Positions 1 to 24,800 of a stretch of DNA of 31,034 nucleotides are shown piece after piece. The stretch covers positions 1 through 31,034 of IMG/VR virus record IMGVR_UViG_3300020468_000040, one strand, 5' to 3'. Position numbers and translations under genes: made by a program. Every line of letters begins with the position of its first letter. Position 1 is the stretch's first letter. Source of the DNA: a virus. Under the pieces are notes generated by a model, which was not told the DNA's origin, did no database searches, and saw only the letters and a program-made list of their open reading frames with translations.

Positions 1-123
1 ACTTTTAATACTGCATGGAGTCCACCCGAAGGAATATTTCGTAAAATTAAAGATCATTTTCCAGATGTTGCTATAAGTTGGTTCTATGATGAACCAGGAA
101 TGGAAGTTGCAGGATATCTATAG
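1..123 (+). CDS. C-terminal end of an Api92/DUF1281-like small protein (partial)
   Basis: The reading frame is open from the first base and ends at TAG 121-123. It gives 40 residues, so the gene starts upstream of the window. The visible part contains TAWSPPEG near its beginning and DEPGMEVAGY at its end. Those two blocks (AWSPP, then a hydrophobic strand leading to Y-x-EPGM-x-x-AG) are how I remember the ferredoxin-like domain of Api92/DUF1281 proteins, small proteins found in phages and plasmids. Their biochemical role is not established as far as I know. The gene is followed directly by a hairpin and terminator cassette, so it is the last gene of its unit. Family assignment rests on motif memory only. 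Confidence 0.6.
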   Translation, partial: TFNTAWSPPEGIFRKIKDHFPDVAISWFYDEPGMEVAGYL

Positions 124-125
124 GA

Positions 126-139
126 CAGTTTAATTACTG
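126..139 (+). repeat. weak CAGT/ACTG hairpin of intergenic cassette 1
   Basis: CAGT (126-129) and ACTG (136-139) pair across a 6-nt loop right after the stop codon. The block continues into GGCACACTCAACCCCC, a string that recurs almost unchanged at 1606-1621. It is the first element of a cassette repeated through the first 3 kb. Confidence 0.45.
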
Positions 140-147
140 GCACACTC

Positions 148-168
148 AACCCCCATATGGGGTTTTTT
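148..168 (+). terminator. rho-independent terminator, cassette 1
   Basis: AACCCC (148-153) pairs with GGGGTT (159-164) around a 5-nt loop and runs into six T residues (163-168). It closes the transcript of the partial gene ending at 123. Confidence 0.75.
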
Positions 169-173
169 ATTGG

Positions 174-187
174 TATTATTAAAGAGT
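174..187 (+). promoter_or_regulatory. putative -10 region of cassette 1
   Basis: TATTATTAAAGAGT lies exactly 10 nt past the last stem base of the terminator (164 to 174). The same box recurs at 914-927 with the same offset after its hairpin, and a shorter form at 1642. No -35 box is visible because that space is occupied by the hairpin. It would drive the gene starting at 208. Confidence 0.45.
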
Positions 188-207
188 ACATAAAGAACCA
201 ATTTTTT

Positions 208-429
208 ATGAAGGATCCATTCTTAACAATCAACGGCAAAGATTATTCTCACAAGGATATTAATTTAGTGCGTGATTTCTTCACAGATGACCAGTGGAAT
301 GTAATCGACAGTGCATTATCTGAGTATCAGGATCACGATGAGGAATTTTTGCAAGAGCAGTTCGGATCATCTGATATTCTAACAGAGACCACGGACGTAA
401 TGTACGAAATTTTTAGATCCGCATATTAG
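208..429 (+). CDS. hypothetical acidic 73-aa protein
   Basis: I do not recognise a function. I chose ATG 208, which gives MKDPFLTING, because the longer frame back to 157 would begin inside the terminator stem and before the putative -10 box. The protein is acidic (DDQWNVIDSALSEYQDHDEEF at its middle region, split here only for reference) and predicted helical, with no membrane segment or cysteines. It sits alone between two terminator/promoter cassettes, so it is probably a monocistronic early accessory gene of the kind common in marine T4-type phages. Confidence 0.7.
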   Translation: MKDPFLTINGKDYSHKDINLVRDFFTDDQWNVIDSALSEYQDHDEEFLQEQFGSSDILTETTDVMYEIFRSAY

Positions 430-453
430 TGTGCCAATTAAATTAGTGGCACA
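430..453 (+). repeat. TGTGCCA/TGGCACA hairpin of intergenic cassette 2
   Basis: TGTGCCA (430-436) pairs perfectly with TGGCACA (447-453) across a 10-nt loop, directly after the TAG stop at 427-429. It is the strongest version of the upstream hairpin found in these cassettes and shares the GGCACA string with the others. Confidence 0.6.
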
Positions 454-457
454 ATAT

Positions 458-484
458 AACCCCATTTCGTAAGAGTGGGGTTTT
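458..484 (+). terminator. terminator, cassette 2
   Basis: AACCCCA (458-464) pairs with TGGGGTT (476-482), with an 11-nt loop and a short T run (481-484). The T run overlaps the start of the downstream -10 box, so this terminator and the next promoter share bases. Confidence 0.65.
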
Positions 485-502
485 ATAATAGTAGTATAAA
501 CA
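484..502 (+). promoter_or_regulatory. putative promoter -10 (TATAATAG...GTATAAAC), cassette 2
   Basis: TATAAT at 484-489 is followed by AGTAGTATAAACAAAC. Near-identical blocks occur at 1320-1340 and 2862-2880, each ahead of a short gene. It would drive the two overlapping genes at 517 and 744. No -35 box is seen; the terminator hairpin lies in that position. Confidence 0.55.
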
Positions 503-516
503 AACAATTTTCCTAC

Positions 517-744
517 ATGACAGATCAAACTTACAACGGATGGGCAGACTGGACAACTTGGAACTGTGCCTTGTGGATCCAAAATGAAGAGACAATTTAC
601 AATCTTGCGAAAGCATGTGAAGACTACATGGAATTTTTATTTGAAATGCAAGTTATGTGCGGTTTTCATGCAACTCCAGACGGGGCAGACTATGGCGAAG
701 CACATGTTGGAGAAATGAACGAACTTATACAGGAGTTATCATAA
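517..744 (+). CDS. NGW...TW family small protein (75 aa)
   Basis: ATG 517 gives MTDQTYNGWADWTTWNCALW. The N-terminal pattern NGW-x-x-W/Y-x-TWN-x-ALWI-x-NEE followed by a helix (YNLAKACEDYMEFL) belongs to a small-protein family widespread in phages, in recent Pfam an uncharacterised DUF (I believe DUF7249; the number is from memory). Function unknown. The frame is open back to 475, but that start would lie in the terminator stem, so 517 is preferred. The stop overlaps the next start (TAATG), pointing to translational coupling with the 42-aa gene. Confidence 0.8.
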   Translation: MTDQTYNGWADWTTWNCALWIQNEETIYNLAKACEDYMEFLFEMQVMCGFHATPDGADYGEAHVGEMNELIQELS

Positions 745-872
745 TGAGTACACTACACCACGAAGACATGCTTTTAGAAATCTTTGAAGACGTGAAAGAA
801 GCATTTCCATATATGGAAGAAGAGAAACAAATCGAAATCGCCAACAACAGATTTTATGATATGTGCCAGTGA
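744..872 (+). CDS. hypothetical 42-aa protein, coupled to the upstream gene
   Basis: The start ATG (744-746) shares its A with the preceding TAA stop. A strong Shine-Dalgarno AGGAG (731-735) sits 8 nt upstream, which decides this start over the longer open frame from 657. The product begins MSTLHHEDMLLEIFEDV and is acidic and helical, with a second helix rich in Glu and Lys (MEEEKQIEIANNRFYDM). I recall similar 40-50 aa proteins in cyanophages, all uncharacterised. No function can be assigned. Confidence 0.75.
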   Translation: MSTLHHEDMLLEIFEDVKEAFPYMEEEKQIEIANNRFYDMCQ

Positions 873-882
873 GCAAGCTGGC
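865..882 (+). repeat. GCCAG/CTGGC hairpin of intergenic cassette 3
   Basis: GCCAG (865-869) pairs with CTGGC (878-882) over an 8-nt loop. The stop codon TGA (870-872) of the 42-aa gene lies in the loop, so this hairpin overlaps the end of the coding region. Confidence 0.5.
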
Positions 883-886
883 CACT

Positions 887-911
887 TATCCCCCACGGGG
901 GATATTTTTTT
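887..911 (+). terminator. rho-independent terminator, cassette 3
   Basis: TATCCCC (887-893) pairs with GGGGATA (898-904) around a 4-nt loop and is followed by seven T residues (905-911). It ends the 517-872 unit. Confidence 0.75.
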
Positions 912-912
912 G

Positions 913-927
913 TTATTATTAAAGAGT
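913..927 (+). promoter_or_regulatory. putative -10 region of cassette 3
   Basis: TTATTATTAAAGAGT, with TATTAT at 914, is again 10 nt past the last stem base (904) and almost identical to 173-187. It would drive the 39-aa and 66-aa genes that follow. Confidence 0.45.
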
Positions 928-946
928 TAAAGGAATTTTTATCACC

Positions 947-1066
947 ATGGATCCACGTTTTGAAGAAGAGGCTCTTTCCATACTGATGGAAGAAGCGTTC
1001 TCAGAAACCAAAGAAGAAACTAAATTTGATGTTGAGGACTACTTCAACTCAAAGATTGATTACTAA
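947..1066 (+). CDS. hypothetical acidic 39-aa protein
   Basis: ATG 947 opens a 40-codon frame ending at TAA 1064-1066. An AAGGA motif lies about 13 nt upstream. The product begins MDPRFEEEALSILMEEAF and is strongly acidic (about a third Asp and Glu), likely a single amphipathic helix. It is followed after one base by the next gene, so the two are co-transcribed. Cassette 3 upstream and the tight spacing downstream support a real gene, but no function is recognisable. Confidence 0.6.
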   Translation: MDPRFEEEALSILMEEAFSETKEETKFDVEDYFNSKIDY

Positions 1067-1067
1067 A

Positions 1068-1268
1068 ATGAAACCAGCTCCAACCGTCAACCCTATTGAT
1101 TTTCACATGAGAAATTACGATCCTTCAATCTACTCTGAAATCGAAAAATTCTGTTCAGAGAATGAATTTACAGTTGATTACTTCTTACAGGAGTTTGCTC
1201 AAGAACATGAGAAACTTCAACGCCCGTTTACAGTATGGCGTGGAAGATCCCCATTAAATGCAGATTGA
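1068..1268 (+). CDS. hypothetical 66-aa protein
   Basis: The start ATG 1068 lies one base after the stop of the 39-aa gene, which fits translational coupling. The frame extends upstream to 1026 but that would overlap the preceding gene by 41 bases. The product begins MKPAPTVNPIDFHMRNYDP and ends in a basic stretch with WRGRSPL. A central segment (EFTVDYFLQEFAQEHEKL) is predicted helical. I do not recognise the family. A terminator cassette follows at 1293. Confidence 0.65.
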   Translation: MKPAPTVNPIDFHMRNYDPSIYSEIEKFCSENEFTVDYFLQEFAQEHEKLQRPFTVWRGRSPLNAD

Positions 1269-1292
1269 GGCCAGTTTGCAAAGTGTCTACTC

Positions 1293-1314
1293 AACCCCCT
1301 AACGGGGGTTTTTT
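1293..1314 (+). terminator. rho-independent terminator, cassette 4
   Basis: AACCCCC (1293-1299) and GGGGGTT (1304-1310) form a 7-bp stem with the 4-nt loop TAAC, followed by a T run to 1314. The degenerate upstream element GCCAGTTTGCAAAGTGTCTACTC (1271-1293 region) matches the other cassettes in sequence but pairs poorly. Confidence 0.8.
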
Positions 1315-1319
1315 AATGC

Positions 1320-1340
1320 CATAATAGATGTATACAAACA
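1320..1340 (+). promoter_or_regulatory. putative promoter -10 (CATAATAGATGTATACAAAC), cassette 4
   Basis: CATAAT starts 10 nt after the last stem base (1310), the same offset as cassettes 1, 3 and 5. The following AGATGTATACAAAC matches the blocks at 484 and 2862. It precedes the gene at 1353, which has a strong ribosome binding site. Confidence 0.5.
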
Positions 1341-1352
1341 AAAGGAGCATTA

Positions 1353-1589
1353 ATGCAACTTACACCAATCGCATCAAACATGACCGAAGTAGAAACAAAA
1401 GACGCAAGAATTTTGTTTTCATACCGCACACCCGTTGCAGCATACATCTTTGGTGAAGGATTTGTCAAAACTGAAAAATACTGGTCAGTTACAACATCAC
1501 GTCACATCAACAAGTGGTTTAGAGATGGGCATGATGACCTACCAGAATTTAAAGAAATACCACAATCCAGACTCGACTCACTGGTTTAA
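1353..1589 (+). CDS. small conserved phage protein, SNMTEV...TPVA family (78 aa)
   Basis: ATG 1353 is preceded by AGGAG (1343-1347), a clear ribosome binding site. The product begins MQLTPIASNMTEVETKDARI and continues with LFSYRTPVAAYI, then WSVTTSRHINKWFRDG. I recall this order (SNMTE, LFSY-x-TPVA, TTSRHINKW) from an uncharacterised family of short proteins in phages and cyanobacteria, possibly the one Pfam names DUF8033; the number is from memory. The family is predicted alpha/beta and has no known activity. The gene stands alone between cassettes 4 and 5. Confidence 0.75.
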   Translation: MQLTPIASNMTEVETKDARILFSYRTPVAAYIFGEGFVKTEKYWSVTTSRHINKWFRDGHDDLPEFKEIPQSRLDSLV

Positions 1590-1590
1590 A

Positions 1591-1608
1591 GCCAGTCAAC
1601 AAACTGGC
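1591..1608 (+). repeat. GCCAGT/ACTGGC hairpin of intergenic cassette 5
   Basis: GCCAGT (1591-1596) pairs with ACTGGC (1603-1608) over a 6-nt loop, 2 nt after the stop codon. It continues into ACTCAACCCCC as in cassette 1. Confidence 0.6.
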
Positions 1609-1614
1609 ACACTC

Positions 1615-1637
1615 AACCCCCTAACAGGGGTTGTTTA
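1615..1637 (+). terminator. terminator, cassette 5
   Basis: AACCCC (1615-1620) pairs with GGGGTT (1627-1632) around a 6-nt loop. The T run is interrupted by one G (TTGTTT), so termination may be leaky into the ligase-like gene. Confidence 0.65.
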
Positions 1638-1641
1638 TTGT

Positions 1642-1650
1642 TATTATTAA
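1642..1650 (+). promoter_or_regulatory. putative -10 region of cassette 5
   Basis: TATTATTAA begins 10 nt after the last stem base (1632), matching cassettes 1, 3 and 4. It would drive the ligase-like and HicA-like genes. Confidence 0.4.
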
Positions 1651-1693
1651 ATCATGGGACACAACCCCTTTTCATTTTTTTACTTTCGTTTTT

Positions 1694-2629
1694 ATGACTA
1701 AAAACTTACACATTGAACATCCAGAAGACAGCATCCTTACAGGTGATCTATCTGTATTAGATGCTTTTTTATTACCTCTTATTCTTTCGTTAAAAATTGA
1801 TGGATCTCCCGCTATTATTTGGGGTCGTAACCCTGCAACTGGTCGCCAGTTTGTTGGCACAAAATCAGTCTTCAATAAGAAGAAAATCTTAATCTGTGAA
1901 ACTCCAGAGGATATTGAGAAGCACTATTCTCATAAACCTACACTGCTTAACATTTTAATGTCGTGTATGGCATATCTTCCAATCACTAAAAACATCTACC
2001 AAGGTGATTTTATTGGGTTTGGTGGTGCTAAGAATTACAGACCAAATACTCTAACCTATAAGTTTTCTGAGGTCGTCACTGAGAAAATCATCATAGCACC
2101 ACACACAAAATATTTTGCCGTGAGTGATTTATCTGATGCCATTGCTATGCCTCTACTGGATAAGTTAGAGAATAGTAGAGTTAAATTTATTCAACCTGAT
2201 GCCTATATTGCTAATAACACGGATGCATTTCATGTCTGTGCTGACTTGATTGAATATGCGTGGTGTTTGAGCACTCGTGTTGATTTTGTAAATGAAAGCA
2301 CGGCAAAGAAAATTAAAACCAATTTAAACCATCTTATTCGTGAGGGTGAGGACATTGTACCGACTCACTTTGAGGATGCGGGTTTATGTGATGCGAACTT
2401 AATTGAGTTGTGGGATACTGTGAGAGAGATAAAGCATATTGCATTAAATGAGTGTAGAGATAATGCAGATTTTTCAACTTGCGTGATGGGTGACCCCGAA
2501 CCGATACAAGGTGAAGGATACGTGATGTTAACACGGTTTGGATATTTCAAGTTGGTCAATCGTCGTGCCTTTTCATATGCAAACTTTCATAATACCAGAT
2601 TCGTTCCCTTACCTCTTCGTGCATCATGA
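1694..2629 (+). CDS. predicted KxDG nucleotidyltransferase, RNA/DNA ligase-like (311 aa)
   Basis: The protein carries the motifs of covalent nucleotidyltransferases (ligases and capping enzymes) in order. Motif I is KIDG (34-37), whose lysine would be adenylylated. A motif III-like GDFIGF lies at 104-109, motif IV is EGYV (274-277), and the motif V lysine is in FKLVNR (K286). The N-terminus HIEHPEDSILTGDLSVLDAF and GTKSVFNKK (55-63) match what I remember of an uncharacterised family in T4-type marine phages (DUF6267, number from memory). It lacks the length and extra domains of T4 DNA ligase or Rnl1, so the substrate is open: nicked RNA, tRNA or DNA. ATG 1694 has no clear Shine-Dalgarno; an upstream in-frame TTG at 1631 falls in the terminator stem and is rejected. 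Its stop overlaps the next start (ATGA). Confidence 0.8.
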   Translation: MTKNLHIEHPEDSILTGDLSVLDAFLLPLILSLKIDGSPAIIWGRNPATGRQFVGTKSVFNKKKILICETPEDIEKHYSHKPTLLNILMSCMAYLPITKNIYQGDFIGFGGAKNYRPNTLTYKFSEVVTEKIIIAPHTKYFAVSDLSDAIAMPLLDKLENSRVKFIQPDAYIANNTDAFHVCADLIEYAWCLSTRVDFVNESTAKKIKTNLNHLIREGEDIVPTHFEDAGLCDANLIELWDTVREIKHIALNECRDNADFSTCVMGDPEPIQGEGYVMLTRFGYFKLVNRRAFSYANFHNTRFVPLPLRAS

Positions 2630-2820
2630 ACTATAACAAGTATAACTCCGAACTGAAAAAGATTATGAAGCGTTATCAATTCACACTTTATAGAAAGAGA
2701 AAGCATCTTACCTGGATCCATGAGTCAGGGCTAAGGATCCATACGTCTGCATCACCTTCCGACGTAAACACACTTCGGCAGGTTGAAAGAAGCATTAAAA
2801 GACGTTTAGTGAGTTTGTAA
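2626..2820 (+). CDS. basic 64-aa protein, HicA-like fold suspected
   Basis: The start overlaps the ligase-like stop as ATGA (2626-2629), so the two are translationally coupled. The product is highly basic. It has a helix (SELKKIMKRYQFTLYRKRK), a two-strand hairpin (HLTWIHESGLRIHTSAS) and a final helix (LRQVERSIKRR). This helix-strand-strand-helix order, with a histidine just after a basic patch (R-K-H), resembles HicA mRNA interferases, which have a dsRBD-like fold and a catalytic His. No HicB antitoxin follows. It could equally be a non-catalytic RNA-binding dsRBD-like protein. No terminator is evident before the hairpin at 2838. Confidence 0.5.
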   Translation: MNYNKYNSELKKIMKRYQFTLYRKRKHLTWIHESGLRIHTSASPSDVNTLRQVERSIKRRLVSL

Positions 2821-2837
2821 ATTAATACGACAGAAAA

Positions 2838-2880
2838 CTCACGTTTTTATGCGTGAGGGTATATAATAGATGTATAAACA
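2838..2880 (+). promoter_or_regulatory. hairpin plus TATAATAGATGTATAAACA promoter
   Basis: CTCACG (2838-2843) pairs with CGTGAG (2852-2857) over an 8-nt loop, without a useful T tract after it. TATAAT follows at 2862-2867, then AGATGTATAAACA, matching the blocks at 484 and 1320. The hairpin again occupies the -35 space. It would drive the gene at 2896. Confidence 0.55.
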
Positions 2881-2895
2881 ATCATTCGCCACCAC

Positions 2896-3132
2896 ATGAC
2901 AAAAACACAGAGACTAATCGAAAGAATTCAAAAAGTAGACAACTTTGAAAACGTTGCCTATGTATGCGAAGACTTCGCAACTTTTATTGAAGAAGTTGCA
3001 GAGTGGGGAGTAGACCACATTGCTGGAGTTGACTTTGATGACCCCGAAGTTAACAGAGGAATGATGGATGCATTTTTTGCTTCATTCGGTTGCACTCCTA
3101 CCAATCCTCACCCTTGCAGCAAATATGCATAG
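2896..3132 (+). CDS. hypothetical acidic 78-aa protein
   Basis: ATG 2896 follows the promoter at 2862. The product starts MTKTQRLIERIQKVDNFENV. It is acidic and helical in its first two thirds (VCEDFATFIEEVAEWGVDHI) and ends with a Pro/Cys-containing tail (GCTPTNPHPCSKYA). I do not recognise the family. A G6/C6 hairpin closes the gene at 3159. Confidence 0.65.
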   Translation: MTKTQRLIERIQKVDNFENVAYVCEDFATFIEEVAEWGVDHIAGVDFDDPEVNRGMMDAFFASFGCTPTNPHPCSKYA

Positions 3133-3158
3133 GGTCAGTCGTTCGTGAATCAGACAGT

Positions 3159-3183
3159 GGGGGGTGTTATGCCCCCCTTATAT
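3159..3183 (+). terminator. G6/C6 hairpin, probable terminator
   Basis: GGGGGG (3159-3164) and CCCCCC (3172-3177) form a strong stem with a 7-nt loop, followed by TTATATT. The stem has its G arm first, opposite to the other terminators here, and the T tract is poor. The rest of the gap to 3295 contains only AT-rich sequence with TATAAA (3231) and TATATAAAAA (3265) strings that could be promoter elements for the next gene. Confidence 0.55.
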
Positions 3184-3295
3184 TAAAATTGCGTAACTAC
3201 CCTAACCTACAAAGTGTTACCCAAGCGAGCTATAAATTCCCCTCTACACAAGATTTTTTTTCGCTATATAAAAACATACACAGGGTTCCAAGAAT

Positions 3296-3469
3296 ATGAA
3301 AAAAAATTTTGATGAAATTTTTTCCACTGTAGAGATCGATCCAGTCACAGATAAATATCATATAACAATACCCGAAGAAATTATTAATGAATATGATTGG
3401 TACGAAGACCTTGTATTAAAATGGAACATAGATAATGGGGACATCATAATTACCGAGGCAGATGAGTAA
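3296..3469 (+). CDS. 57-aa AbrB/MazE-like small protein
   Basis: This short frame starts at ATG 3296 and ends at TAA 3467-3469. Residues 13-57 read as one AbrB/SpoVT-type swapped-hairpin half: VEIDPVTDKYHITIPEEI, then a short helix (INEYDWYEDLVL), then a final strand DNGDIIITEAD. The hallmark is strand, IPEEI, helix, hydrophobic strand, G/D-rich turn, strand. AbrB-like proteins are dimeric DNA-binding regulators or antitoxins. The IDPVTDKY segment lacks the usual basic DNA-contacting residues, so binding is uncertain. It overlaps the next gene by 8 bases, indicating co-translation. It could instead be an unrelated small beta protein. Confidence 0.55.
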   Translation: MKKNFDEIFSTVEIDPVTDKYHITIPEEIINEYDWYEDLVLKWNIDNGDIIITEADE

Positions 3470-3650
3470 AAAAACATATCACATCTATTTGGAAGATAAT
3501 AAGTGTTTGTTTAAAAATTTAAATGAAGAAGAGTTTAATATAATATGGAATAAGTTATATACATCATACTGGAAGGACGAGATAACCTACGAAGAGATTA
3601 CGGAAACCCCTAAAGATTACATTACAACTTTAGAAGAAAGTTCTTATTGA
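3462..3650 (+). CDS. hypothetical 62-aa protein
   Basis: ATG 3462 lies inside the end of the AbrB-like gene (ATGAGTAA overlap), so translation is probably coupled. The product begins MSKKTYHIYLEDNKCLFKNL and continues EEEFNIIWNKLY, a strand-strand-helix pattern. I recall 50-65 aa proteins with the YHIYL...CLFKNL...EEF-x-x-IW arrangement in cyanophages, all of unknown function. If the upstream gene is a regulator or antitoxin this could be its partner, but nothing catalytic is visible. The stop TGA overlaps the -35 box of the following promoter. Confidence 0.7.
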   Translation: MSKKTYHIYLEDNKCLFKNLNEEEFNIIWNKLYTSYWKDEITYEEITETPKDYITTLEESSY

Positions 3651-3675
3651 CAGTCAATATATAATATAGTATAAT
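3647..3675 (+). promoter_or_regulatory. consensus sigma70-type promoter
   Basis: TTGACA (3647-3652) and TATAAT (3670-3675) are perfect consensus hexamers separated by exactly 17 bp. The TGA inside TTGACA is the stop codon of the preceding gene. This is the only perfect two-hexamer promoter I found in the window and should be read by unmodified host RNA polymerase early in infection. It drives the glycosyltransferase-like unit starting at 3715. Confidence 0.85.
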
Positions 3676-3714
3676 ATGATTACTTAAGTATTAAAAAACA
3701 TAGCGAATTCGATT

Positions 3715-4473
3715 ATGGCTAAAGGATTTACGGTGAAGGCAAAATCACCGATGAAGAAGAAAAAGGAACCTGAATGGGATTTTGAAAATGCAAAAGCAAT
3801 GGTAAAAGGAAAAGCCATTGTATTTTGTCTACCAGGTAGAGGAGTTTCTTATCAATTTCTAAAAAGTTTTGTACAACTTTGTTTTGATTTAGTTCAGTGT
3901 GGAGCAAGTATACAGATCTCACAAGATTATAGTTCTATGGTAAACTTTGCAAGATGTAAATGTCTTGGTGCAAATGTTCTCAGAGGGCCAAACCAAGTTC
4001 CATGGGATGGTAAACTAAATTATGACTGGCAATTATGGATTGATTCTGATATTGTCTTTAACAGTGAAAAGTTTTTCCAATTAATATTAATGGAGAAAGA
4101 TATTGCAGGAGGATGGTATGCCACCGAAGATGGTAAGACTACCTCTGTTGCACATTGGTTAGAAGAGGATGATTTTCGTAACAATGGTGGTGTGATGAAT
4201 CACGAAACCGTCGAAAGTATATCCAAGAGACGCAAACCTTTCACAGTAGACTATACAGGTTTTGGATGGTTACTGATTAAGAAAGGAGTTTTTGAACACG
4301 AAGGAATGCCTTATCCATGGTTCGCACCCAAGATGCAAGTTTTTGAATCAGGTGAGGTGCAAGACATGTGCGGTGAGGACGTTTCTTTCTGTCTTGATGC
4401 GAAGGAAGCAGATTTTGAGATCTGGTGTGACCCTCGTATACGAGTAGGACATGAAAAAACAAGAGTTATATAA
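3715..4473 (+). CDS. GT-A-type glycosyltransferase-like protein (252 aa)
   Basis: The protein looks like a metal-dependent GT-A glycosyltransferase. A first Rossmann strand is at 34-40 (AIVFCLP), and FARCKCLGANVLRG at 78-91 resembles the nucleotide-sugar binding helix. The DxD motif is in LWIDSDIVF (DSD 110-112). An acidic GEDVSFCLDAKEADF (220-234) would hold the acceptor-side catalytic carboxylate, and GHEK (245-248) supplies the usual late histidine. The N-terminal 20 residues are Lys-rich and probably disordered. The family occurs often in T4-type marine phages, where sugar acceptors are unknown; virion proteins, DNA or host envelope glycans are all possible. It is transcribed from the consensus promoter at 3647 and overlaps the next gene by 23 bases. 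Confidence 0.75.
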   Translation: MAKGFTVKAKSPMKKKKEPEWDFENAKAMVKGKAIVFCLPGRGVSYQFLKSFVQLCFDLVQCGASIQISQDYSSMVNFARCKCLGANVLRGPNQVPWDGKLNYDWQLWIDSDIVFNSEKFFQLILMEKDIAGGWYATEDGKTTSVAHWLEEDDFRNNGGVMNHETVESISKRRKPFTVDYTGFGWLLIKKGVFEHEGMPYPWFAPKMQVFESGEVQDMCGEDVSFCLDAKEADFEIWCDPRIRVGHEKTRVI

Positions 4474-4624
4474 AGTAACCATAGATGGAAAGGAAGTATT
4501 CTCAGGTTTAACTCACATGGAATACTTTAATATTATGGATAACCTATCGATAGAGTATTATCAGACAGGTTCTCCACATCCAGACACAATTAAAACTGAA
4601 ATTTATTTGGAGGAAAATGATTAG
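4451..4624 (+). CDS. hypothetical 57-aa protein overlapping the glycosyltransferase
   Basis: ATG 4451 lies within the last 23 bases of the glycosyltransferase gene in another frame. The frame ends at TAG 4622-4624. The product begins MKKQELYKVTIDGKEVFSGL, then THMEYFNIMDNLSIEYY, and ends TIKTEIYLEEND: a beta-hairpin, a helix and a final strand. The 8-base overlap with the next gene and its position between two supported genes make it likely real. I do not recognise a function. Confidence 0.65.
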   Translation: MKKQELYKVTIDGKEVFSGLTHMEYFNIMDNLSIEYYQTGSPHPDTIKTEIYLEEND

Positions 4625-4767: not shown

Positions 4768-4794
4768 AAGGCACTATAATGGGTGCCTTTTTTT
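4768..4794 (+). terminator. rho-independent terminator separating early and late blocks
   Basis: AAGGCAC (4768-4774) pairs perfectly with GTGCCTT (4783-4789) over an 8-nt loop and runs into a T tract (4788-4794). It ends the glycosyltransferase unit just before the first late promoter. Confidence 0.85.
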
Positions 4795-4808
4795 ATGGGC
4801 AATACTCA

Positions 4809-4816
4809 TATAAATA
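4809..4816 (+). promoter_or_regulatory. T4-type late promoter 1 (TATAAATA)
   Basis: An exact TATAAATA core, recognised in T4-type phages by the gp55 sigma factor with the gp45 clamp, lies 18 nt before the gp25 start codon and just after a terminator. It should drive gp25, gp6 and the giant gene. Confidence 0.85.
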
Positions 4817-7194: not shown

Positions 7195-10100
7195 ATGATA
7201 AGAACTGATTTTGAATCTAAAGTTAAAATTCAACAAATTATAGATAATCAACTTCCAAATTTTATTAGGAGTGAAAGTCCTAAAACGGTAGATTTTTTAA
7301 AACAATATTATATTTCACAAGAATATCAAGGTGGGCCTGTTGATATTACAGACAATTTAAATCAATATTTAAGTTTAGATAGTTTAATTCCTGAAGTTAT
7401 TGTTGATAGTACTACTTTATCATATGATATTGATTCAACTGTAGGTGTAGTTACTGTTAGTTCTACAAAAGGATTTCCACAAGAGTATGGATTATTTAAA
7501 ATTAATGATGAGGTAATTACATATACTAATATTTCATCTGATAATTTATCATTTGAAGGATGTAAACGTGGATTTAGTGGGATTACAAGTTATCATCAAG
7601 AATTAAATGATGAAGAATTAGTATTTTCCAGTACAACAGCTTCTGAACACTCTGCTGGTAGTCATATACAAAATTTAAGTTCTTTATTCTTAAAAGAATT
7701 TTATAAAAAATTAAAATTTAATTTAGTTCCAGGATTGGAAGATATAGATTTTACTCCAACTTTAAATGTTGGTGCCTTTCTAAAAGAATCTAGATCTTTT
7801 TATGAATCAAAAGGAACGAATGAATCTTTTAGAATATTATTCAATGTACTTTACAATGAAACTCCTAGAATTGTTAATTTAGAAGATTATTTAATAAAAC
7901 CATCTTCTGCAGAATATTTAAGACGTGAAGTTGTTGTTGCAGAAGTTGTCAATGAAAGATCTCCAAATGAAGATCCTCCAAATCCCAAAAAATTGGTCGG
8001 TCAGACATTATTTAAAACTTCTGATTTAAATACTAATGCTGCTATTTCAGAAATAGAACCATTTAGTAGAATTGGAGTTGCATTAACATCAGTTCAACAA
8101 TATTTTAAAATTTCTCTTTTTGTTGGTTATGATAATAGTGCATCCACTATTCAAGGTGATTTTAAAATTACACCATCAACAAGATCTCTTAATGCTGTTT
8201 CTATAGGTTCATCTGTAATAACAGTAGATTCAACTATAGGATTTGGTCAAACAGGAACTTTAATATCGGGTAGTAATACTAATATTAATTACACAAATAA
8301 AAGTGTAAATCAATTTTTTGGATGCACTGGAATTGATAATGGAATTAATTCTACTGATAATATACGTAATAATGATACTTATTTTGGATATGAGGATGGA
8401 GATACCACTAAAAAAGTAGAATTAAGATTAACTGGTGTTTTATCAGAATTTGAACAAGTATCTGATAATTTGACTGTGGATGAGGGAGAAATAATATCAG
8501 TTAAAAATCTTGGAGATTTGATTAAAAATCCTTCTAGTAATAAAACATATAAAGAAACTTTTGCAAATTCTTGGATTTATAATACAAGTACAAGATATAA
8601 GATTAAAATAGAAGACACTGAGTTTGGTGAGGAAACTCAATCAATCAATTTATTTGATAGTTATGATAGATCTAGTTTAAAGCAAGGAGATACAGTAGAA
8701 ATAGTTGAAAGATCTTCAAATAATATTACCCTATTTAAGGGTGGTGATTCTTTTGCTATTATTATTGAGGATAATAACAGTGGTGTCGGAGATAAACAAG
8801 TTCTTCTTAGTTCTAAATATACACCTGTACTAAACAAGGAATATGATTTAAGGAGAAAAATTAATACTGCGATTAGCAATAGAGAACCATTAGAATATGA
8901 CGATATTACATCAGACATACAAAACGTATATATTGAAAATGAAGAAACATTTTATGTAGCTTCAAATTCATTACCATCTGCAAAAGTTGATGGAAATGGT
9001 AATGAACGTGAATATCAATATTTAAATTCAATTGACACTAAAATTGATAAAGTTTCTATACCATTATCTCATGAAGGATTTGGATTAATTGAAGAAATTT
9101 CTGGAGAACCTAATAAATTTGCTGCAATAAAATTTGAAAATAATGTTCCCTTTCAAGATGGAGATGAAATTTTTTATAAAACTTCAGGAGATCCTTACGG
9201 TGGGTTGGAAAATAATGAAATATACTTTGTAGAAGTTGATTCTAGTGATAAAAAAATAATTAAATTATATACATCTCCAACATTTATCGGTAGTTCTGAT
9301 TATATAAAACTATCGGATGCAAATGCTGTGCATGAATTTATATTAACTTCACAAAGTTTTGAAAAAATAGGAGCACAAAAATTACTTAAAAAGTTTCCAG
9401 TAAATCCAGATATTTCTAAAGGAAATCAAACGAAAACAGTTGTAGGAACAACTGGTATGTTGGTTAATGGTGTTGAAATAAACAATTATAAATCTAATGA
9501 TAAAATATATTATGGCCCTATAGATTCAATAAAATTATTGAATGGTGGTTCTGATTATGATGTTATAAATTTACCAAAAATTGAAGTTGCTGCTGGATTT
9601 GGAACAACTGCATTAATTCAACCTATAATTCAAGGTAATATTAAAAAGGTTTACGTTGATCAACAGAATTTTGATATTAATGAAGTCATATCAATTAATG
9701 TTACTGGTGGTAATGGAAATGCAGTTTTAGAACCGATAATTCAAAAAAGATCTAGAGATGTTTTGTTTAGTGGTTTATCTACTAATAGTTTTGGGGGAGT
9801 AAGTCAGGAATTAAATACCATACAATTTTTATCAGACCATGTTTTTGAAATTGGTCAAGAAGTAATTTATAATTCTGGTGGTAGTAAACCTGTTTCTGTA
9901 GGTATTGGAACATCAACATTGGTTGATGATGCAAGTTATTTTGTTGAGGTAATTGATGAAAAAACTGTTAAATTATATACTTCTTTTGATGATGCAATTT
10001 CTAAAACAAATGTTGTAGGATTAAATACTTTTAATGCTGGAGGTATTCATAAATTTTCAACACTTCCAACTCAAAAATATATTTCTGGTATTGGTGTAAT

Positions 10101-13100
10101 TAATGATGGATTGTTTACAAATAGAAAATTAATTGTTAAATCAACTGGAATATCAACTCAATATGATAAAGTTACATTTAATAATCATGGATTTAATAAT
10201 GGTGAGAAAATTATATATTCTACGACTGGAAATAAGATAAGTGGATTGAACACATCAACTGGAATTACAACCACTACAAATCAATATCAAATTATAAAAA
10301 TTGATGATAATTCATTTAGACTTTCTGATGCTGGAGTTGGAGGAACTATAACATCAAATTATACATCAAAAAATTACATATCTTTAAATTCAGTTGGTTC
10401 AGGTAATCACAATTTTTCTTATCCAGATATTGAAGTTTCTTTAGACTATGTTCCTCTTGGGATTGGAACTGATACTCAAATTAAAAAATCAGTTAAATTA
10501 ACTCCTATTATTAGAGGTAGTATTATTGATTCTTATCTTTATGAATCTGGAACTGGTTATGGATCTTCAATTATAAATTTTGAAAAAAATCCTATTATTT
10601 CTATAAAAAATGGTAAAAATGCTTCATTAAAACCTACAATAGTAAATGGAAAAATAGATGCTGTTTCAGTTTCATTTCAGGGTAGTGAATATTTTTCTAT
10701 TCCTGATTTAAATATAATAGATAATTCTGGTTCAGGAACTGGTGCAGAACTAAGACCTATAATTTCTAATGGAAAACTTACAGATGTTGAAATTATTAAT
10801 GCTGGAATTGGATATTCTTCTTCAGATACTTCAATAAATGTTGTTGCTGCTGGAAAAAATGCTGTTATATCAAATCAGATAAGATCACTAACTCTTGACA
10901 ATAGAAATAAATTTGGTGATAGTATATTATTAAATTCTAATGAAAATAATAATTTACAATATGGTATTTGTGGATATGGTGAAACATTAAGAGATTATTT
11001 TGGTGATAGTATAGATCTTCCTCATTCACCAATTATTGGGTGGGCCTATGATGGAAATCCAATATATGGATCTTTTGGTTATGCAAATCCAGGAATAGCA
11101 CTAACTCCAACACGTATGCGTTCTGGATATACTTTAAACTCTTCTAAAGTTATTGATAGACCATTAGGTTTTGATGATGGTTATTTTGTTGAAGATTATG
11201 AATTTACGAATGCAGGAGATTTAGATAGAAACAATGGTAGATTTACAAAAACATTTAATTTTCCTGATGGAATATATGCATATTTTGCAACCATAAAAAG
11301 TGATTCCGATCAAAATATACCAGAATTTCCTTATTTTATTGGAGATTCTTATAGATCAGTTCCAGTTCTTCAGGATATTGACCAATCATATAATTTTGAA
11401 GGATCTAATCTTATAAGAAATACTTTTCCATATAAAATTTCTGAAAAAAATATTGATAATGACTTTATAGTAGAAACTAATGAGATTTCAAAACAAAAAA
11501 TTGTAATGAAATCAGTTACATCTGGAAGTGTTGATGAATTAGTAATTATTTCATCTGGTGATAATTATAAAGTTAATACTAGTTTATCTTTTGACAATAC
11601 TAATACCGAAGGAACTGGACTAATATCAAGAGTTACCTCATTGAAAGGTAAAGATATTGTTGATATTAATACTACCACAACTACTTTTAATAATACAATA
11701 ATTAATTGGAAAAATTCAAATAGTTTAAATTTTACAGTTTTACCATTCCATACTTTTTCTGATGGAGATGTTATATCAATTTCTGGATTTGCATCTACAT
11801 TATCTCAGTTAAATGGTAATCATACCGTCGGTGTTACTTCTTTTAAAGCATCTGGAATTTCTACGATACTACCATCATCAACTGTTGGGTTTACCACTGA
11901 AATATATGTGTCTTCAATTCCAGAATCAGTTTCAGTAGGAAATAGTATTGGAATCGGAACAGAAACTTTACAAATATTGGACATTTACAAAAATGCTAAT
12001 ATTTTAAGAGTAGAAAGAGGAACTACAGGCCTTGCACATACAGTTCCCTTTACAGTGTCATTTTTACCAGATACTTTTACAATTAATAAATCTGTAGATT
12101 ATTTTGAATCTAGAATAAATGATATAGTTTATTTTAATCCAAAAGAATCTATAGGATTTGGAACTTTATCTGGAATTTCATCATCAGTAACCTTTGATTT
12201 TGGTGTTTCTACAATAACAAGAGATATTCCCACACAAAGAATTTATATTGAAAATCATCCGTTTGTTGATAATCAACAAATAACATTATCAAATGTTACT
12301 TCAAATATTACATATAATGTTGACCCATCAAATAGTGCTAATAGTAACGCTAGTTTACCATCTACGTTATTTGTTTCTAATACAAGTAAAAATACTATTG
12401 GAATAAAAACAGGAGTTGGTATTGGATACTCTAATGTATATTTTGTCAGTGGTGGTGCGGATGTAGATACATATAAATTTACAAGTAATTATGAACAAAT
12501 ACTTGTAGATGTAGAAAAAAATGTTGCAAAAGTTTCTGTTTCAACTTCACATAATTTAAAAATAGGTGATAATATAAGTTTATCTGTAAATCCAAATTTA
12601 TCTGTTGGAATAGGAACAAGTTCTTCAGTTAAAATTCAATTAGATGAAAATACAGGATATTCTTTAGTTAATCATATAGGGTTTAACTCAACTGGAATTA
12701 ACACAACTACAAATCAAATTAATATTTCCTCGCATGGATTTATAACTGGTGATAAAATTTCATATACAACCACGGATACAGCTCCTGAAGGTTTATCAGT
12801 AAATGATTATTTTGTTTATAAAGTTGATAAAGATAATTTTAAATTATGTAATACACGTAATGATGCTATTTCTAATCCACCCATTACTATAAGTATTGCA
12901 AGCACTGGGGGAGAATCGCAAACTATATTTTCAATTAATCCACAAATTGATGTAGTTGATAATAATAATTTGGTTTTTGATTTATCACACTCATCTTTAC
13001 AGGGTTATAAATTTAAACTTTATTATGATAAAGATTTTAATAATGAATTTGTTTCTACATCATCAACAACATTTAATATAATAAGTGTTGGAACACCTGG

Positions 13101-16100
13101 TATTAGTGCGGATGCATCAATTAAAATTAATAATAATAATTTATTACCAGAAAAATTATATTACACGTTTGAAAAATCTGGATTTATTAGTACTGCTGAT
13201 AAAGATGTTCAATATTATTCTGAAATAGAATTTATTGAGAGTTCATATAATAATGATTATAGTATAATTGGCATTGGAAATACTACTTTTGATATTTCAC
13301 TAAAATTATTTCCTGAAAAAATCTCATATAACCAATCTGAATGTGATTCTCTTATCTATTCTACAAGTTCGTTAACAGCAAGTGGTGGAATTGATAAAGT
13401 TGGTATTGATTATGGTGGATCTGGTTATAAAAAATTACCTAATTTTGTTGGAACTTCTTCAACAGAAGGTAAAGGTGGACAAGTTATTGCTAAATCAAAA
13501 TCTATTGGAAATGCAAATCAAATTAGAATTATTAATGAGGGATTTGAATACTCATCTGATAATACATTAAAACCTAATGCATTCATATCACCATTTATTA
13601 CAATTAACAATTCAAACACCATAGGTGTTGTTACTGTTAGTGAACCTGGAAGTGGATATTTATCATCTCCAAATATAAATCTTGTAGATTCGATAACTAG
13701 AGAAAAAATTAATAAAGGAGTTTTTAATACAAATTTAGTTGGTAGTTCCATAAAAAATATTGACATTACAATTAAACCCTTTGGATTATCTGATAATCCA
13801 ATAGATATATTCACCACCAATAATAGTAATGGCGTTGGTATTAAAACTATAATTTCCAATTCAACAGGAATATTCACATGTTCTATAGAAACACCATCTT
13901 TAGGATTTACAGCTGCACCATTTTTAGTAGGTGATGAAGTCTTTATTGAAGGTATTAAAAAATACAGCACAGATGGATCTGGATTTAATTCCGAAGATTA
14001 TGGTTTTAAATTTTTCAAAGTTTCAAGTTTTGATGATACAGGAATAAATTTTAAAGTTACTATCAACTTAGAAGGATTATCAACAAATACTGGTATAGCT
14101 ATCACAAATCAAAATTCATTAGCGTCTATAGTAAATAAAAATAAATATCCAATTTTTACAACATTATTAGAATCATCCAAATTTATTATAGGTGAACAAT
14201 TAATTATAGGTAATGAACAAAAAGATTTATTTATTACAAGTAGTGAAAGTGATTTTATAAAAATAACTGGAAATTATGAATTATCTATTGGTGATATTAT
14301 TACTGGAAAAGAATCTGGTGTAATAGCTACAATCGATAGTATTAGTAATAATAATGGAAGATATATTGTAGATTATTCAGCTAAAAAAGATATAGGATGG
14401 TCTGATAATATTGGAAAATTAAATGATGATACACAAGTAATTCCAAATAATGATTATTATCAAAATTTATCATATTCAATACAAAGTTCTCTTACTTATG
14501 ACAAATTGAGAAATGCAGTAAATAGTTTACTTCATACAAGTGGTCTTAAAAATTTTGCTGATACTGGAATTTCTTCATCTACTACTGTAGGAATTGCAGG
14601 CACTGATTTTAGTATTGTTATCAAAGATTATATTGGTGATAACAGAATAGATTCAATTTATAATTTTGATCTTGCAAATAGTTTAAATGAAAATGATATT
14701 TCTAAATTCATAACATTACAAAATAAAAAATTATCAAATTACAATCTTTCAAAAAGTAATGAAGTTTTTGTTATTGATAATATTAATACACAATTTAATA
14801 ATTTAACTGAAGATACGAATGAATATTTAGATGTTTTTAATAATAATGTAATTAGTTACAAAAATTTATTACTTAGAGTTAGTAATTTACAAAATACTAA
14901 AGTACAATTATCTGATTTGGTATTATTATCTAATAATAATAATCAATATCTTTTAGAAAGAGGTCAACTTGTTTCTGGAATTACGACATCTTATGGTAGT
15001 GAAGATTTATTAGGATCTTTTGATTTAATTGAGAATATATTTACAGGAGAACAATCTGTTAGATTTGTACCTTTAACAGATACATCCAATACTGATTATG
15101 ATATAAAAGTTATTACTAGTGAATTTTTAAGTGGTTCTGGTATTGGAACTTTTCCTGTAGGATTTATTAATTTGAGTGGAATATCAGGTATCGGCACATC
15201 TAATAATGATGGAACACCAGCTATCACTGGTATTATAACTGCAAAATCTGATAAATTCACTTCTTTCCATACAAGAAATGAATTAATCAATAAAACAAAG
15301 AATGAAGTTAATTTTGTTGAAGTTTATGCCACTCATGATGGAACTAATACATATGTTTCTGAATATTTTATTGACAATTCTAATTACAATGGATATTCAT
15401 CTACTGGAATAGGTTCTTTTAAAGCAAATATTAGTGGAAGTGATTTTGTATTAAATTACCACAATGATACAACAGATCAAATAGATATTAAATCGAATGT
15501 AGTTGGATTTGGTACAACATCTGTTGGAACTGCAACATATAGATTTAATAAAGATAATCAACCTGATGGAACGGAAAGAACTGCAATTTATCAATCTAAT
15601 TACTCTAAATCAATTGGTATATCTACAGTATTCACATTAGATAAAAATTTATTTAATGCAGTCAAATCAATTATTGAGGTCAGTATTGGATCTACTAAAG
15701 CACTACATCAAGTATTGACAGTACATAATGGAGATAATGTTTATGTAAACTCATTACCATTTCTTTCTGTTAATGGAACCATACCAAATTCATCTATAGA
15801 AGAATATGATAATATTCTTGGAATAGGTACTTTTGGAGTTAATTTTGCTTCCAATGATTTCTTATTAAAATTCTATCCAGATCCAATTTTTAATTCAGAT
15901 TATATTCAAGTATCAACTTTAAATTTATGTGTTTATAAAAAATTAGATGTTGATAATAAACCGAATGATTTTATATATGGTAAAACTAAAGAATCTATTG
16001 ATAATTATTTTTATAATGCACCTAATGGATCTCGTATTAATAGAACCAGTTTTACTTTAACTTCAAATGATATTCCATTATTTGCAAAAACCTTTGATCC

Positions 16101-19100
16101 TGCTAATACAGATATTATCAGTACTAATGGTAATACCTTTAATATTGAAGATCATTTTTTTAGAACAAATGAAGAATTAATTTATACACCGAAATCTACT
16201 TTTGTTGGTGTGGGTTCTACACCAATGCAATATCAAGGTGTTACAGGTGGAATTGATATTTTACCATCAAATGTTTTTGCAATAAGAACTAATAAAGATT
16301 CATTCCAAATTTCAACCACTAGTGGTGGTGGTGCTGTTACTTTTGTTGGTGTTGGAACAGGAAATGGACATGAATTTGCAATGGCTAAAAGTAATACTAA
16401 AAATATTATTAATATTAACAATATAATTCAATCACCTTTATCTTTTGCTTTACTCACTCATACTTTAAAAGATAATTTTGATGATAATAATTCCTTCCTT
16501 GGTATTAGTACTTCAAGAACAACATTTGCCTTGAGTGGAATATCATCTGTTAGAGTTAGAGATATTTTAAAAATTGATAATGAATATATGAATGTTGTTA
16601 GTGTGGGTGTTGGTACTACCACTGTTGGGCCAATTACTCCAGGAATTGGTTTAACATCACTAGTTGATGTAGAACGTGGTTTTGTCGGAACTTCTGCAAC
16701 AAATCATACAAATAACACTAACGTTGAAATTTATAGAGGTTCATTTAATATTGTTGGTAGTAAAATTCATTTTGTTGATGCTCCTAGAGGAAATTTAGCA
16801 AGATTAAAAAATGAAAATAATTTAGATTTTGCTAGATCAGATTTTAATGGCAGAACATATTTTAGACAAAATTATACAACTAATCAAATATATGATGATA
16901 TTTCTGAACAATTTACTGGTATTGGTCAAACATTTAATTTAACTATTGGTGGATCAAATACTTCTGGTATAGGAGAAACTGGTGGTAATGGATTAGTATT
17001 GATAAACAGTATTTTCCAACGTCCAACTGCAGTTAATAATCCTTCTAATAATTATCAAATGATTGATGATTCTGTTGCAGGTGTAAGTAGTATTTCATTT
17101 ACGGGTATCAGATCTGATACTGGTGATATTTTTATTAGTGAAAATGATGTAAATCAAAACCAATTACCAAGAGGTGGTGTAATTATTTCTCTTGGATCTA
17201 CTCCAGGATTAGGATATGCACCTTTAGAGGGAGCAGAGGCTATTACTGAAATTGATGCTACTGGTGGTATTTCAAGAGTTGTTTCTGCAGCTACAACTGG
17301 ACCAAGTAATAATATTACCACTGCAAGATATGATAATTTAACTGGAGATATAGTTATTACAACTAAAAATGATCATAATTTTGAATTAGGAATTGTAAAT
17401 CAAGTTAAGTTAGTTGGATTGGAATTTTCTTGTACACAAGAACATGCTGGTGTAACCACAACAATATTCCCAGATGTTATTGATCCAGTTACTGGTCTTG
17501 GTACTACTGCATATACAATTCTTCAAACTATACCTGGCGATTTTGAACATAGATTTGTAACTGCAACTGATAATGCTGTTAACGGTTCATTAACCCCTAC
17601 AGGAGCGTTATATAAACCTACAAGCGGTCTTTTAGAGTTATCATTTAGTTCTGCTCATAATTTGTCAATTGGTGATGCTGTAACAGTTGCTAATTACGGA
17701 ATTACATTTACATGTGATGCTGATAATCATGCTACAACTCATCCATATCCAAGACCTACAGATCCTATTTCTGGTATTTCAGTTCCTGTACTTGATGTTC
17801 CAACTACTACAAGTTTTACAATTAATGTTGGCCCTTCTCCTACTTATAGATTTAAAACTAATGTTGGTATATGCACTATTCCACACAATTATGTGGGTCA
17901 AGGAACAGTATTCCCATACTATGGAGATGTTAAGATTGGATCTGGTTATCGTTCTCCAGTTTCTGTTGCAGTAACAGATACTGCATTTAATCACAAATTT
18001 GTAGGTACAATTGGAACTAGTGTTTTTGTAAATTCATGGTCTGGAGTGGCAAAAACAGCAACGGGAGCTGATTATGATTCTGTTAGTGGTAATTTAATAT
18101 TAACAATTCCTTCACATGGTCTTACAGATTCTAATACTGTTGGAATTAAAACAGAATCATTAATATTCTCATGCTCCAAAGATAATTATAAAACAGAGCA
18201 TCTTTATCCAAGAGCAACAGATCCAGTATCTGGCATTCTTACTGCAATTACTGCCTATGATACAAATACATTCACTGTAAATGTTGGTTCTGCAATTGGT
18301 AGAGGTGCTATCGTTAATACCACAGTTGGATTAGGTGGAACATTATCATTTAGTATTGGTGCAGCAGGTACAAATTATAAAAATCCTCAATTAATAATTC
18401 CTGAAGCATCATATAAAAATTTAGAAGTTACAGGAGTATCTAGATTAGCTGATGGATCGACTACAAATACTGGAAGTGGACTATTACTTGATATCAACAT
18501 AGGTGCAAGTTCTACAGTTGGTATTGGATCTACACAATTCTCTGTTACTAATTGGAAAATTGCCCGTAATGGTTATGGATTTAGAAAAGGTGATGTATTC
18601 ACTCCTGTTGGTCTAGTTACGGATGCTAGTTTATCATCACCAATAAAACAATTTGAATTGACAGTATCAGAAGCTTATAATGATCCATTTTCAGCATGGC
18701 AATTTGGTCAATTTGATTACATTGATTCTATTAAGGATCAACAAGATGGAGTTAGAACAAGATTTGAAATCAAGTATGATGATGAATATTTAAATTTTGA
18801 AATTGAAGATGGTGGTGAATTTAATGTAAATCTTTCAAATTCTTTATTAATTATAATTAATGGTGTAGTTCAAGAACCAGGTTCTGCATATCAATTTGAA
18901 GGTGGAACATCTTTTGTATTTACAGAACCACCTAAAGAAGAGGATGATGTTGCAATATTCTTCTATAGAGGAACTTCTGGAGAAGATACTCTATTAGTTG
19001 ATACTATTAAACCAACATTAAAATCTGGAGACGATCTTCAATTATTAAGTATTGACTCAAATGATGTTAATCAAGATAATAGGACTATGCTTGGTATTGC

Positions 19101-21812: not shown

Positions 21813-24800
21813 ATGACACAGAAAAAAGATTTAAATATTAGTCCTTATTATGATGATTTTGATCCATCTAAGAATTTTTATAAAGTTCTTTTTAAACCAG
21901 GATTTCCAGTTCAAGCTAGAGAATTAACTACTCTACAGTCTATTTTACAAACTCAAATAGGTAATTTTGGTAGTCATATGTTTGATGAGGGTTCTTTAGT
22001 CACTGGAGGAGGGCCTACGTATGATTCTAATTACACTGCAGTAAAATTAAATTCTTCTCAATTTGGTATTGATATATCTTTATATGTAGATCAACTTGTT
22101 GGAAAAACTGTAGAAGGTGAAATTTCTGGTATAAAAGCCAAAGTAGAACTTGTTGCTTTACCTGATGGTAATATTGTAGAAGATTTAACATTATATGTAA
22201 AATATATTACTTCCAGTAAAAATGATTTTGTAACTGATACCTTTATAGATGGTGAATCATTAATAGTAAAAGAAAATATTGTATATGGAAATACTACCAT
22301 AACTGCAGGATCTCCTGTAGTAACTTTAATACCTTTAGATGCTACAGCAATAGGTTCTTCTGCATCTATAGAAAGTGGTGTATATTTTATAAGAGGAAAT
22401 TTTGTAAATGTAGATAAACAAACCATAATATTAGATCATTATACAAATAGTCCATCATATAGAGTTGGTTTAGGTATTAATGAAGATATTATCGCTTCAA
22501 AAGATGATGAATCATTATATGATAATGCTAAAGGTTTCTCAAATTTTGCTGCACCTGGTGCTGATAGATTTAAAATTGGATTAACTCTTACTAAAAAATT
22601 ATTAGATGATACTAATGATATTGATTTTGTTGAAATATTAAGAATTGATAATGGAGAAACATTATTAATCGAACCAAAAACTCAATATAATAAAATTAGG
22701 GATTATTTTGCAGAAAGAACTAGTGATGAATCTGGAAATTATGCGGTTGATGAATTTAATGTATCAATTAATAATTCTTTAAATGATAGATTGGGATCCA
22801 ATGGAATATTTTATAGTAATCAAAAAACACAAAAAGGAAATGATCCTTCAGATGATTTGATGTGTGTTACAGTTTCTACTGGTAAAGCTTATGTTAATGG
22901 TTATGATGTTGTAAATTCTGGTATTAATAATATTATAGATGTTGAAAAACCAAGAGATGTTGAAAAAGTAGACTCAACAAATATTGATTTTAGAATGGGA
23001 AGTCTTTTGAAAGTTAATACTGTTAGTGGGCAACCACAAACGAGAAATACTGTACAACTATATGACACATTAGGTTCTACTGGAACACAGATTGGAGATG
23101 CAAGATTATATTCAATAAATTTATCAGATTCAATTTATACTGGAGATTCTACAAAATGGGATCTATATCTATATGATATACAAACTTATACTGAAATTAC
23201 AATAATACCTGCAGCAGCTACTGGTGATTTCTATGCTTCTGCTTATGTAAAGGGGTTAAGTAGTGGTGCAACTGGTTATATGACTAGTAATTCTGATGGA
23301 AGCACTGCATATAAATTAAGACAAACATCGGGAACTTTTATTAAAGGTGAGGAAATTTCTATAAATGGTAACAGTTTTAATCCAGCTGGTAAAAAAACTA
23401 TTACGGATACTAAAGTTTATGGTTCTAGAGAAATTAAATCAGTAAAGCAACTTGCCTCTGCTTCATCAGATCATGTGCGAGATTTTAAAGCAAATAGTTT
23501 TTTAGAAACATTTGACTTACCAAATAATGTAGAGGGGGGAACAATTAGTGGTGGTAATACACTAAAAAGTCCAGGAAATGTATTTACCGAGATACCAATT
23601 GGTACTATTATTAGGTATCAGGTTGCTGGACTTAATGATGAAACTTTTAATAAAGTAACAGCAGTTAGTGCTGATGGAACAACATTAACCATTGCTGCAG
23701 CAGCTTCTGCTGATGTTAGTGGTGTTTTTGATAAAGATGTTGCGGATGCAACTTATTCAAGCATCAAAATAGGAGCTCCTAATATATCAGGAGGAGGAAC
23801 TTTATATACAGAATTACCAAATCAAAATATATCATCGGTTGATTTTAGTTCTTCATCTTTATCAGTGACTGCTCAAGTTGTGGATAAGGATGTTAGTAGT
23901 AATGCTATTACTATCAATACTAGTGATATTAAAGATGGTGGTGGAACTGGAATTTCATCAGCATTTTTTGATTCTTTTGCAATAGGAAGATATTCTGTAT
24001 TTTATGGTGGGTCAGGTGCTGGAATTGGTACAGTAACCTCAGATACTTTTGTTAAAAGTTCTGGTGGTGGAACAGTTACTTTTAATGGGTTAGAAAATTC
24101 AAATGATGATTCAGTTATCAATATAACAGCTTCAAAACAGGGTATTCAAAGTAAAATTAAAAATTATGAAAGAAGTCTAATACTCAACATAGACAAATCT
24201 TATAATCCAGAATCTGGAACCACTGTTTCATCTACTCTTGCAGATGGATTGACTTTTAATGAAAAGGCATTTGGTTTAAGAGTTCAAGATGAAATTATTT
24301 CTTTAAATGTTCCAGATGTAGTTAAAGTTTTAGCAGTTTATGAATCTAAAACTACTGCTGCTCCAACTTTTGATATTCTTTCATTCCCTTCAACTGCTAA
24401 CGTACTATCTAATGCAATTTTAGGAGAAAATGTAATTGGGCAAACATCTAAAGCTATTGCAAGAATTGTTACTAACAATAATTCATCACCTTCATCTGGA
24501 GGTAGTAATAAATTAGGATTTATATATTTAAATGATAGAAAATTTGATGTAGATGAAACTATTGTATTTGAAGAATCTAATATTACATCCACTATTGAAA
24601 ACATTGAAGATGGTAGTTATCAGGATATTTCAAAATCATATGTTTTAGATAAAGGGCAACGAGATGAGTATTATGATTATTCTAGAATAGTTAGAAAAGT
24701 TAATGCATCTGTACCGACTAAAAAATTAATGGTTGTATTTGATAAGTATACAATTCCTACTGATGATAGTGGAGATGTATTTACTGTATTAAGTTATGAT

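Follow-up and report, generated by a model that had tools for sequence, protein, structure and literature searches.

A palindromic box at a fixed distance from a -10 hexamer, with intrinsic terminators in between, at gene boundaries of T4-like cyanophages

Promoter early stem-loop (PeSL) cassettes in T4-type phages are reportedly known from Arbiol 2010 and Comeau 2014, and Doron 2016 is said to have found a novel regulatory element that drives the early genes of Syn9 and P-TIM40. Its abstract reportedly describes this element as unlike the T4 scheme, and as both conserved and abundant in T4-like cyanophages. The MotA box of T4 middle promoters, positioned near -30, does not form a 24-bp palindrome. 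Cyanomyoviruses are without motA and asiA (PMC2984593), and S-PM2 was judged to be without dense PeSLs, a 'potential stem loop' being given at its positions 11369-11391 (PMC4503421).

The window analyzed here is a 31-kb virus record (31,034 nt). It was assigned to a T4-like cyanophage by gene content, with the baseplate genes gp25, gp6 and gp8 downstream of the cassettes, and its nearest DNA relatives were Synechococcus and Prochlorococcus phages. Two very large ORFs (4332 and 2434 aa, at 7195-20193 and 21813-29117) were found among the baseplate genes. A cluster of small ORFans spans positions 1-2820 and holds five composites of ~60 bases, each with a palindromic box, a terminator and a -10 hexamer, all of them present where the first-pass annotation had placed them. 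Terminator-like hairpins numbered 11 within positions 1-4000, compared with 2.1 in shuffled sequences.

Table 1. Cassette parts and the ORFs behind them in the window; scores are weight-matrix scores, spacing is from box core to -10 in nt.
Feature	Position	Strand	Details
Palindromic box, cassette 1	121..144	+	TAGGACAGTTTAATTACTGGCACA; score 33.8 including its -10
Intrinsic terminator stem-loop, cassette 1	148..164	+	
-10 TATTAT, cassette 1	174..179	+	spacing 34; serves ORF 208-429
73-aa ORFan, behind cassette 1	208..429	+	weak phrog_35733 match
Palindromic box, cassette 2	430..453	+	TGTGCCAATTAAATTAGTGGCACA; score 39.3; adjoins stop codon 427-429
Terminator stem-loop, cassette 2	458..482	+	
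-10 TATAAT, cassette 2	484..489	+	spacing 35
ORFs served by cassette 2	517-744 and 744-872		
Palindromic box, cassette 3	862..885	+	score 23.1, weakest copy; overlaps stop codon of ORF 744-872
Terminator stem-loop, cassette 3	887..904	+	
-10 TATTAT, cassette 3	914..919	+	spacing 33
ORFs served by cassette 3	947-1066 and 1068-1268		
Palindromic box, cassette 4	1267..1290	+	score 31.0; overlaps stop codon of ORF 1068-1268
Terminator stem-loop, cassette 4	1293..1310	+	
-10 CATAAT, cassette 4	1320..1325	+	spacing 34
ORF served by cassette 4	1353-1589		phrog_5643
Palindromic box, cassette 5	1588..1611	+	score 30.2; overlaps stop codon of ORF 1353-1589
Terminator stem-loop, cassette 5	1614..1633	+	
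-10 TATTAT, cassette 5	1642..1647	+	spacing 35
ORF served by cassette 5	1694-2629		DUF6267, phrog_455

With a probability of about 75%, we regard the composite as an early-type promoter of T4-like cyanophages (box, ~34-bp spacer, -10) that encloses the terminator of the upstream gene and doubles as a recombination joint. Like a PeSL, it combines an intrinsic terminator with an early-type promoter at a gene joint, the terminator being found inside the box/-10 spacer in five of five window copies and in 69 of 137 non-redundant copies, and its location, the ORFan cluster ahead of gp25/gp6, is a hyperplastic region of accessory genes. It differs in that the promoter half, rather than a T4-type -35/-10, is a palindromic box with a fixed distance to its -10, and in that the hairpin is placed within the promoter. 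The initial description as PeSL-like applies to the terminator/promoter joints that recur among accessory genes, along with the enriched indel junctions and a hybrid cassette described below, but does not extend to the promoter type. The reported stem-loop of S-PM2 falls within a box/-10 composite at 11352-11405. As in T4 middle promoters (MotA box plus -10), a putative activator box takes the place of the -35 element, but here the box is a 24-bp palindrome and lies near -53. Since Syn9 and P-TIM40 both carry the composite, it is probably the element of Doron 2016, an identification drawn from the shared phages rather than from the published motif. No description of a box-dependent promoter whose fixed spacer contains a nested terminator was found in the accessible literature.

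The palindromic box and its distance to the -10 hexamer

The element upstream of the TATAAT-like -10 was a 24-bp palindromic DNA box with the extended form TGTGMCASTTNNNNAASTGKCACA. Among relatives retrieved via ORF 1353-1589, the strongest signal was the palindrome CAST-N6-ASTG, with 260 occurrences versus 24 in reversed sequence and 9 to 66 for CAST/ASTG with other gap lengths. When 527 kb of related loci plus the window were scanned on the + strand with a box/-10 weight matrix, 291 sites were returned, versus none in the reversed sequences. The composites therefore recur beyond chance, and the further copies in relatives that had been proposed as a check are plentiful.

A TATAAT-like hexamer was located 31-38 nt past the box in 185 boxes, and counts rose sharply at 33-35 from a background of 2-3 per position. 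Because the matrix had been trained on copies picked for a -10 at 31-38 nt, spacing counts in that set are partly conditioned. Other phages, outside the training set, provided an independent test, in which the spacing was left free from 20 to 49 and the peak still fell at 33-35. Among the 137 non-redundant copies from related phages, 131 had a spacing of 33-35 (mean 34.3), and the distance holds in all five window copies. An ORF of at least 30 codons with an ATG within 120 nt followed 131 of the 137 copies, the ATG lying at a median of 26 nt past the -10. Furthermore, 59 of the 68 orthologues of ORF 1353-1589 were preceded by a module with spacing 34-35, whose spacer varied between C5/G5 terminators, GGGGAC/GTCCCC terminators and no obvious terminator. 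The nine orthologues without the module include the most distant relatives.

In an earlier set, a terminator was found in 39% of spacers versus 1.5% of shuffled spacers, which marks the terminators, unlike the box, as genuine stems. Mean spacing was the same for copies with a terminator (34.28, sd 0.70) and for those that had none (34.29, sd 0.96), and in the former longer hairpins were accompanied by shorter tails (r = -0.75; hairpin length sd 2.8). The unchanged spacing and this compensation indicate that promoter geometry is the constraint and that the terminator has been fitted in. A -10 starting exactly 10 nt after the stem, as first proposed, was seen in copies 1, 3, 4 and 5 (164/174, 904/914, 1310/1320, 1632/1642), but not in copy 2, where the -10 at 484 nearly abuts the stem. 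As an organizing rule, a fixed terminator-to--10 distance does not hold, because the stem end lies -1 to 11 nt from the -10 (sd 3.0); given the compensating hairpin and tail lengths, the 'constant 10 nt' is a by-product.

The placement of the terminator in the -35 space was borne out. No -35 consensus was found in the 137 non-redundant copies, and TTGACA matches were near the shuffled level, at 3.07 vs 2.86 of 6 with a terminator and 3.31 vs 2.91 without. The window's relatives displayed an A-W-T preference 17-19 nt upstream of the -10. The first T of the -10 follows the box centre by ~41 bp, which puts the centre near -53 relative to the expected start, and from this position we judge the putative ligand of the box to be an activator rather than a repressor. 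A box-bound repressor that silences the genes would agree with the palindromic form, typical of most dimeric repressor sites, and with the lack of a known activator. It is nevertheless unlikely, since the box lies outside the core promoter at fixed spacing, whereas repressor sites commonly overlap the promoter and can vary in position, and since there is no -35 consensus that could support unaided transcription.

Pairing of the box arms was no better than with the 3' letters shuffled among copies (z -2.1 to 2.2; 167 copies), and at the variable core pair G opposite G was seen most often. Arms without covariation argue that the box is not a selected RNA hairpin. The first element, read as an RNA 'hairpin or remnant' (CAGT/ACTG or GGCACA) in the first-pass annotation, is the palindromic box in five of five copies and, judged by its arms, a DNA site. 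The same evidence bears on tandem RNA hairpins, with the palindrome as the first hairpin of a double terminator or as an RNA-processing site and the -10 as incidental. Some copies do have perfect arms, and in a few cases (L124 2055, L132 1994) a GGACAGT...ACTGTCC hairpin stands alone with its own U-tail. However, besides the missing covariation, the core gap was strictly 6 nt, with 7 in some copies, whereas hairpin loops usually vary, and the box-to--10 distance was kept even without a terminator, which makes tandem hairpins quite improbable.

Distribution among phages and hosts

Whole-record pattern counts and matrix scans identified the composite in S-SSM7, P-SSM2, P-SSM4, P-SSM7, P-HM2, S-SRM01, S-PM2, S-SM1 and Syn9. 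Syn9 contained 8 copies, every one with a spacing of 33-34, and P-TIM40 contained 10 copies at 45-55 kb. In the 44-60 kb region of P-TIM40 (L386), a CACTACCG-like sequence occupied the spacer of most copies as a lineage-specific middle element. In the window, S-SSM7, P-SSM4, Syn9 and P-TIM40, the sites clustered in the ORFan region just before gp25/gp6, ahead of transcription units. Ordinary sigma-70 early promoters after ordinary terminators, repeated by chance or shared descent, would fit the TATAAT-like -10 and a slight excess of -35-like matches of at least 4/6 in terminator-free copies (41% vs 22%), but are highly improbable given a box and spacing conserved across genera with differing spacers and reversed controls with only 0-1 matches per phage.

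The weight matrix gave no site in T4, where the exact pattern had one isolated match. The exact pattern was absent from RB49 and KVP40, and likewise from S-RSM4, S-CRM01 and SynMITS9220M01, which were searched with this pattern only. In 15 cyanobacterial genomes, about 30 Mb, 2 occurrences of the composite were counted (3 in controls) and a single one of the box by itself. A host promoter element was thereby ruled out, and this absence from the host genomes points to a phage element. A separate pattern scan for AACTGNCACA-AACCCC in viral contigs returned mostly single matches by chance. Judging from these scans, the composite is a promoter common to the family Kyanoviridae, and not, as had been supposed, this phage's own version.

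Apparent gene exchange and a proposed explanation

Related viruses appear to swap genes at the cassettes. In cassette-bearing stretches, 40 of 82 non-redundant indel junctions fell inside cassettes, compared with 13.5 under random placement (sd 3.3, maximum 27 in 2000 trials), with the tendency of indels toward any gene boundary uncontrolled in this comparison; such signs of recombination or gene exchange between copies are a further likeness to PeSLs. Long overlaps, in which a compact cassette aligned over at least 30 nt to both sides, were present in 13 of the 40 cassette junctions versus 5 of 42 elsewhere. At a one-gene difference between L124 and L125, a hybrid cassette was found whose left half corresponds to L125 ~4220-4250 and whose right half corresponds to L125 ~4468-4510.

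Under the promoter reading, each composite would be a single gene-boundary module. At the DNA level, a protein-binding palindrome of 24 bp would be separated by a fixed ~34-bp spacer from a TATAAT-like -10 that lacks a -35 consensus. This box would most likely be bound by a dimeric DNA-binding factor, whether phage-encoded, phage-injected or host-derived, which would help RNA polymerase onto a promoter without a -35. AbrB/MazE-like proteins, matched weakly and in no more than 9 of 16 cyanophages, are a lead at best for this regulator. At the RNA level, the spacer would encode the intrinsic terminator of the upstream gene in about half of the copies, including all five here, and because the box-to--10 distance is fixed, hairpin and U-tail must fit inside it. 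Near-identical modules lie only a few hundred bases apart, so that homologous recombination among them would add or remove units of one or a few genes with ends and starts intact. Gene content and earlier literature suggest that the cassette promoters act early.

A more tentative possibility is a dual-coded joint, in which the same ~34-bp stretch would be both the previous gene's terminator and, for a promoter that depends on an activator, the rigid spacer. Ending and starting transcripts might then compete or cooperate, much as the first-pass annotation suggested that read-through and initiation may be linked; the accessory genome would recombine at this module, and the activator would work at the very start of infection.

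For these very abundant marine viruses, the matrix could predict from sequence where transcription units start in the ORFan-rich host-takeover region, and the box offers a concrete DNA bait with which to seek the missing early regulator of T4-like cyanophages. The proposed module also gives a testable account of how accessory genes may be shuffled without loss of expression.

Other elements of the window

A hairpin (CTCACG/CGTGAG) with TATATAATAGATGTATAAAC directly 3' of it at 2838-2884 forms a cassette-like joint without a recognizable box. An Rfam search of the window gave no match, neither at the cassettes nor at a conserved non-coding stretch at 3128-3240, composed of TTCGTTCGTGAATCAGACAG, a G6/C6 hairpin and then CTACAAAGTGTTAC..AAGCGAG. 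This stretch holds the same position in many relatives, being close in L131, L138, L143 and L149 and more distant in L124, L139, L144 and L145, and is a candidate structured RNA or processing site.

Three promoter types were observed within 5 kb of the window: the cassettes, a sigma-70 site and a T4-type late promoter sequence. The perfect sigma-70 promoter (TTGACA, 17 nt, TATAAT; 12/12) lies at 3647-3675, upstream of ORF 3715-4473; the abstract of Doron 2016 reportedly assigns this host-like kind of promoter to middle genes. At 4768-4816, a terminator is followed by TATAAATA at 4809-4816, the T4-type late promoter sequence, immediately upstream of gp25.
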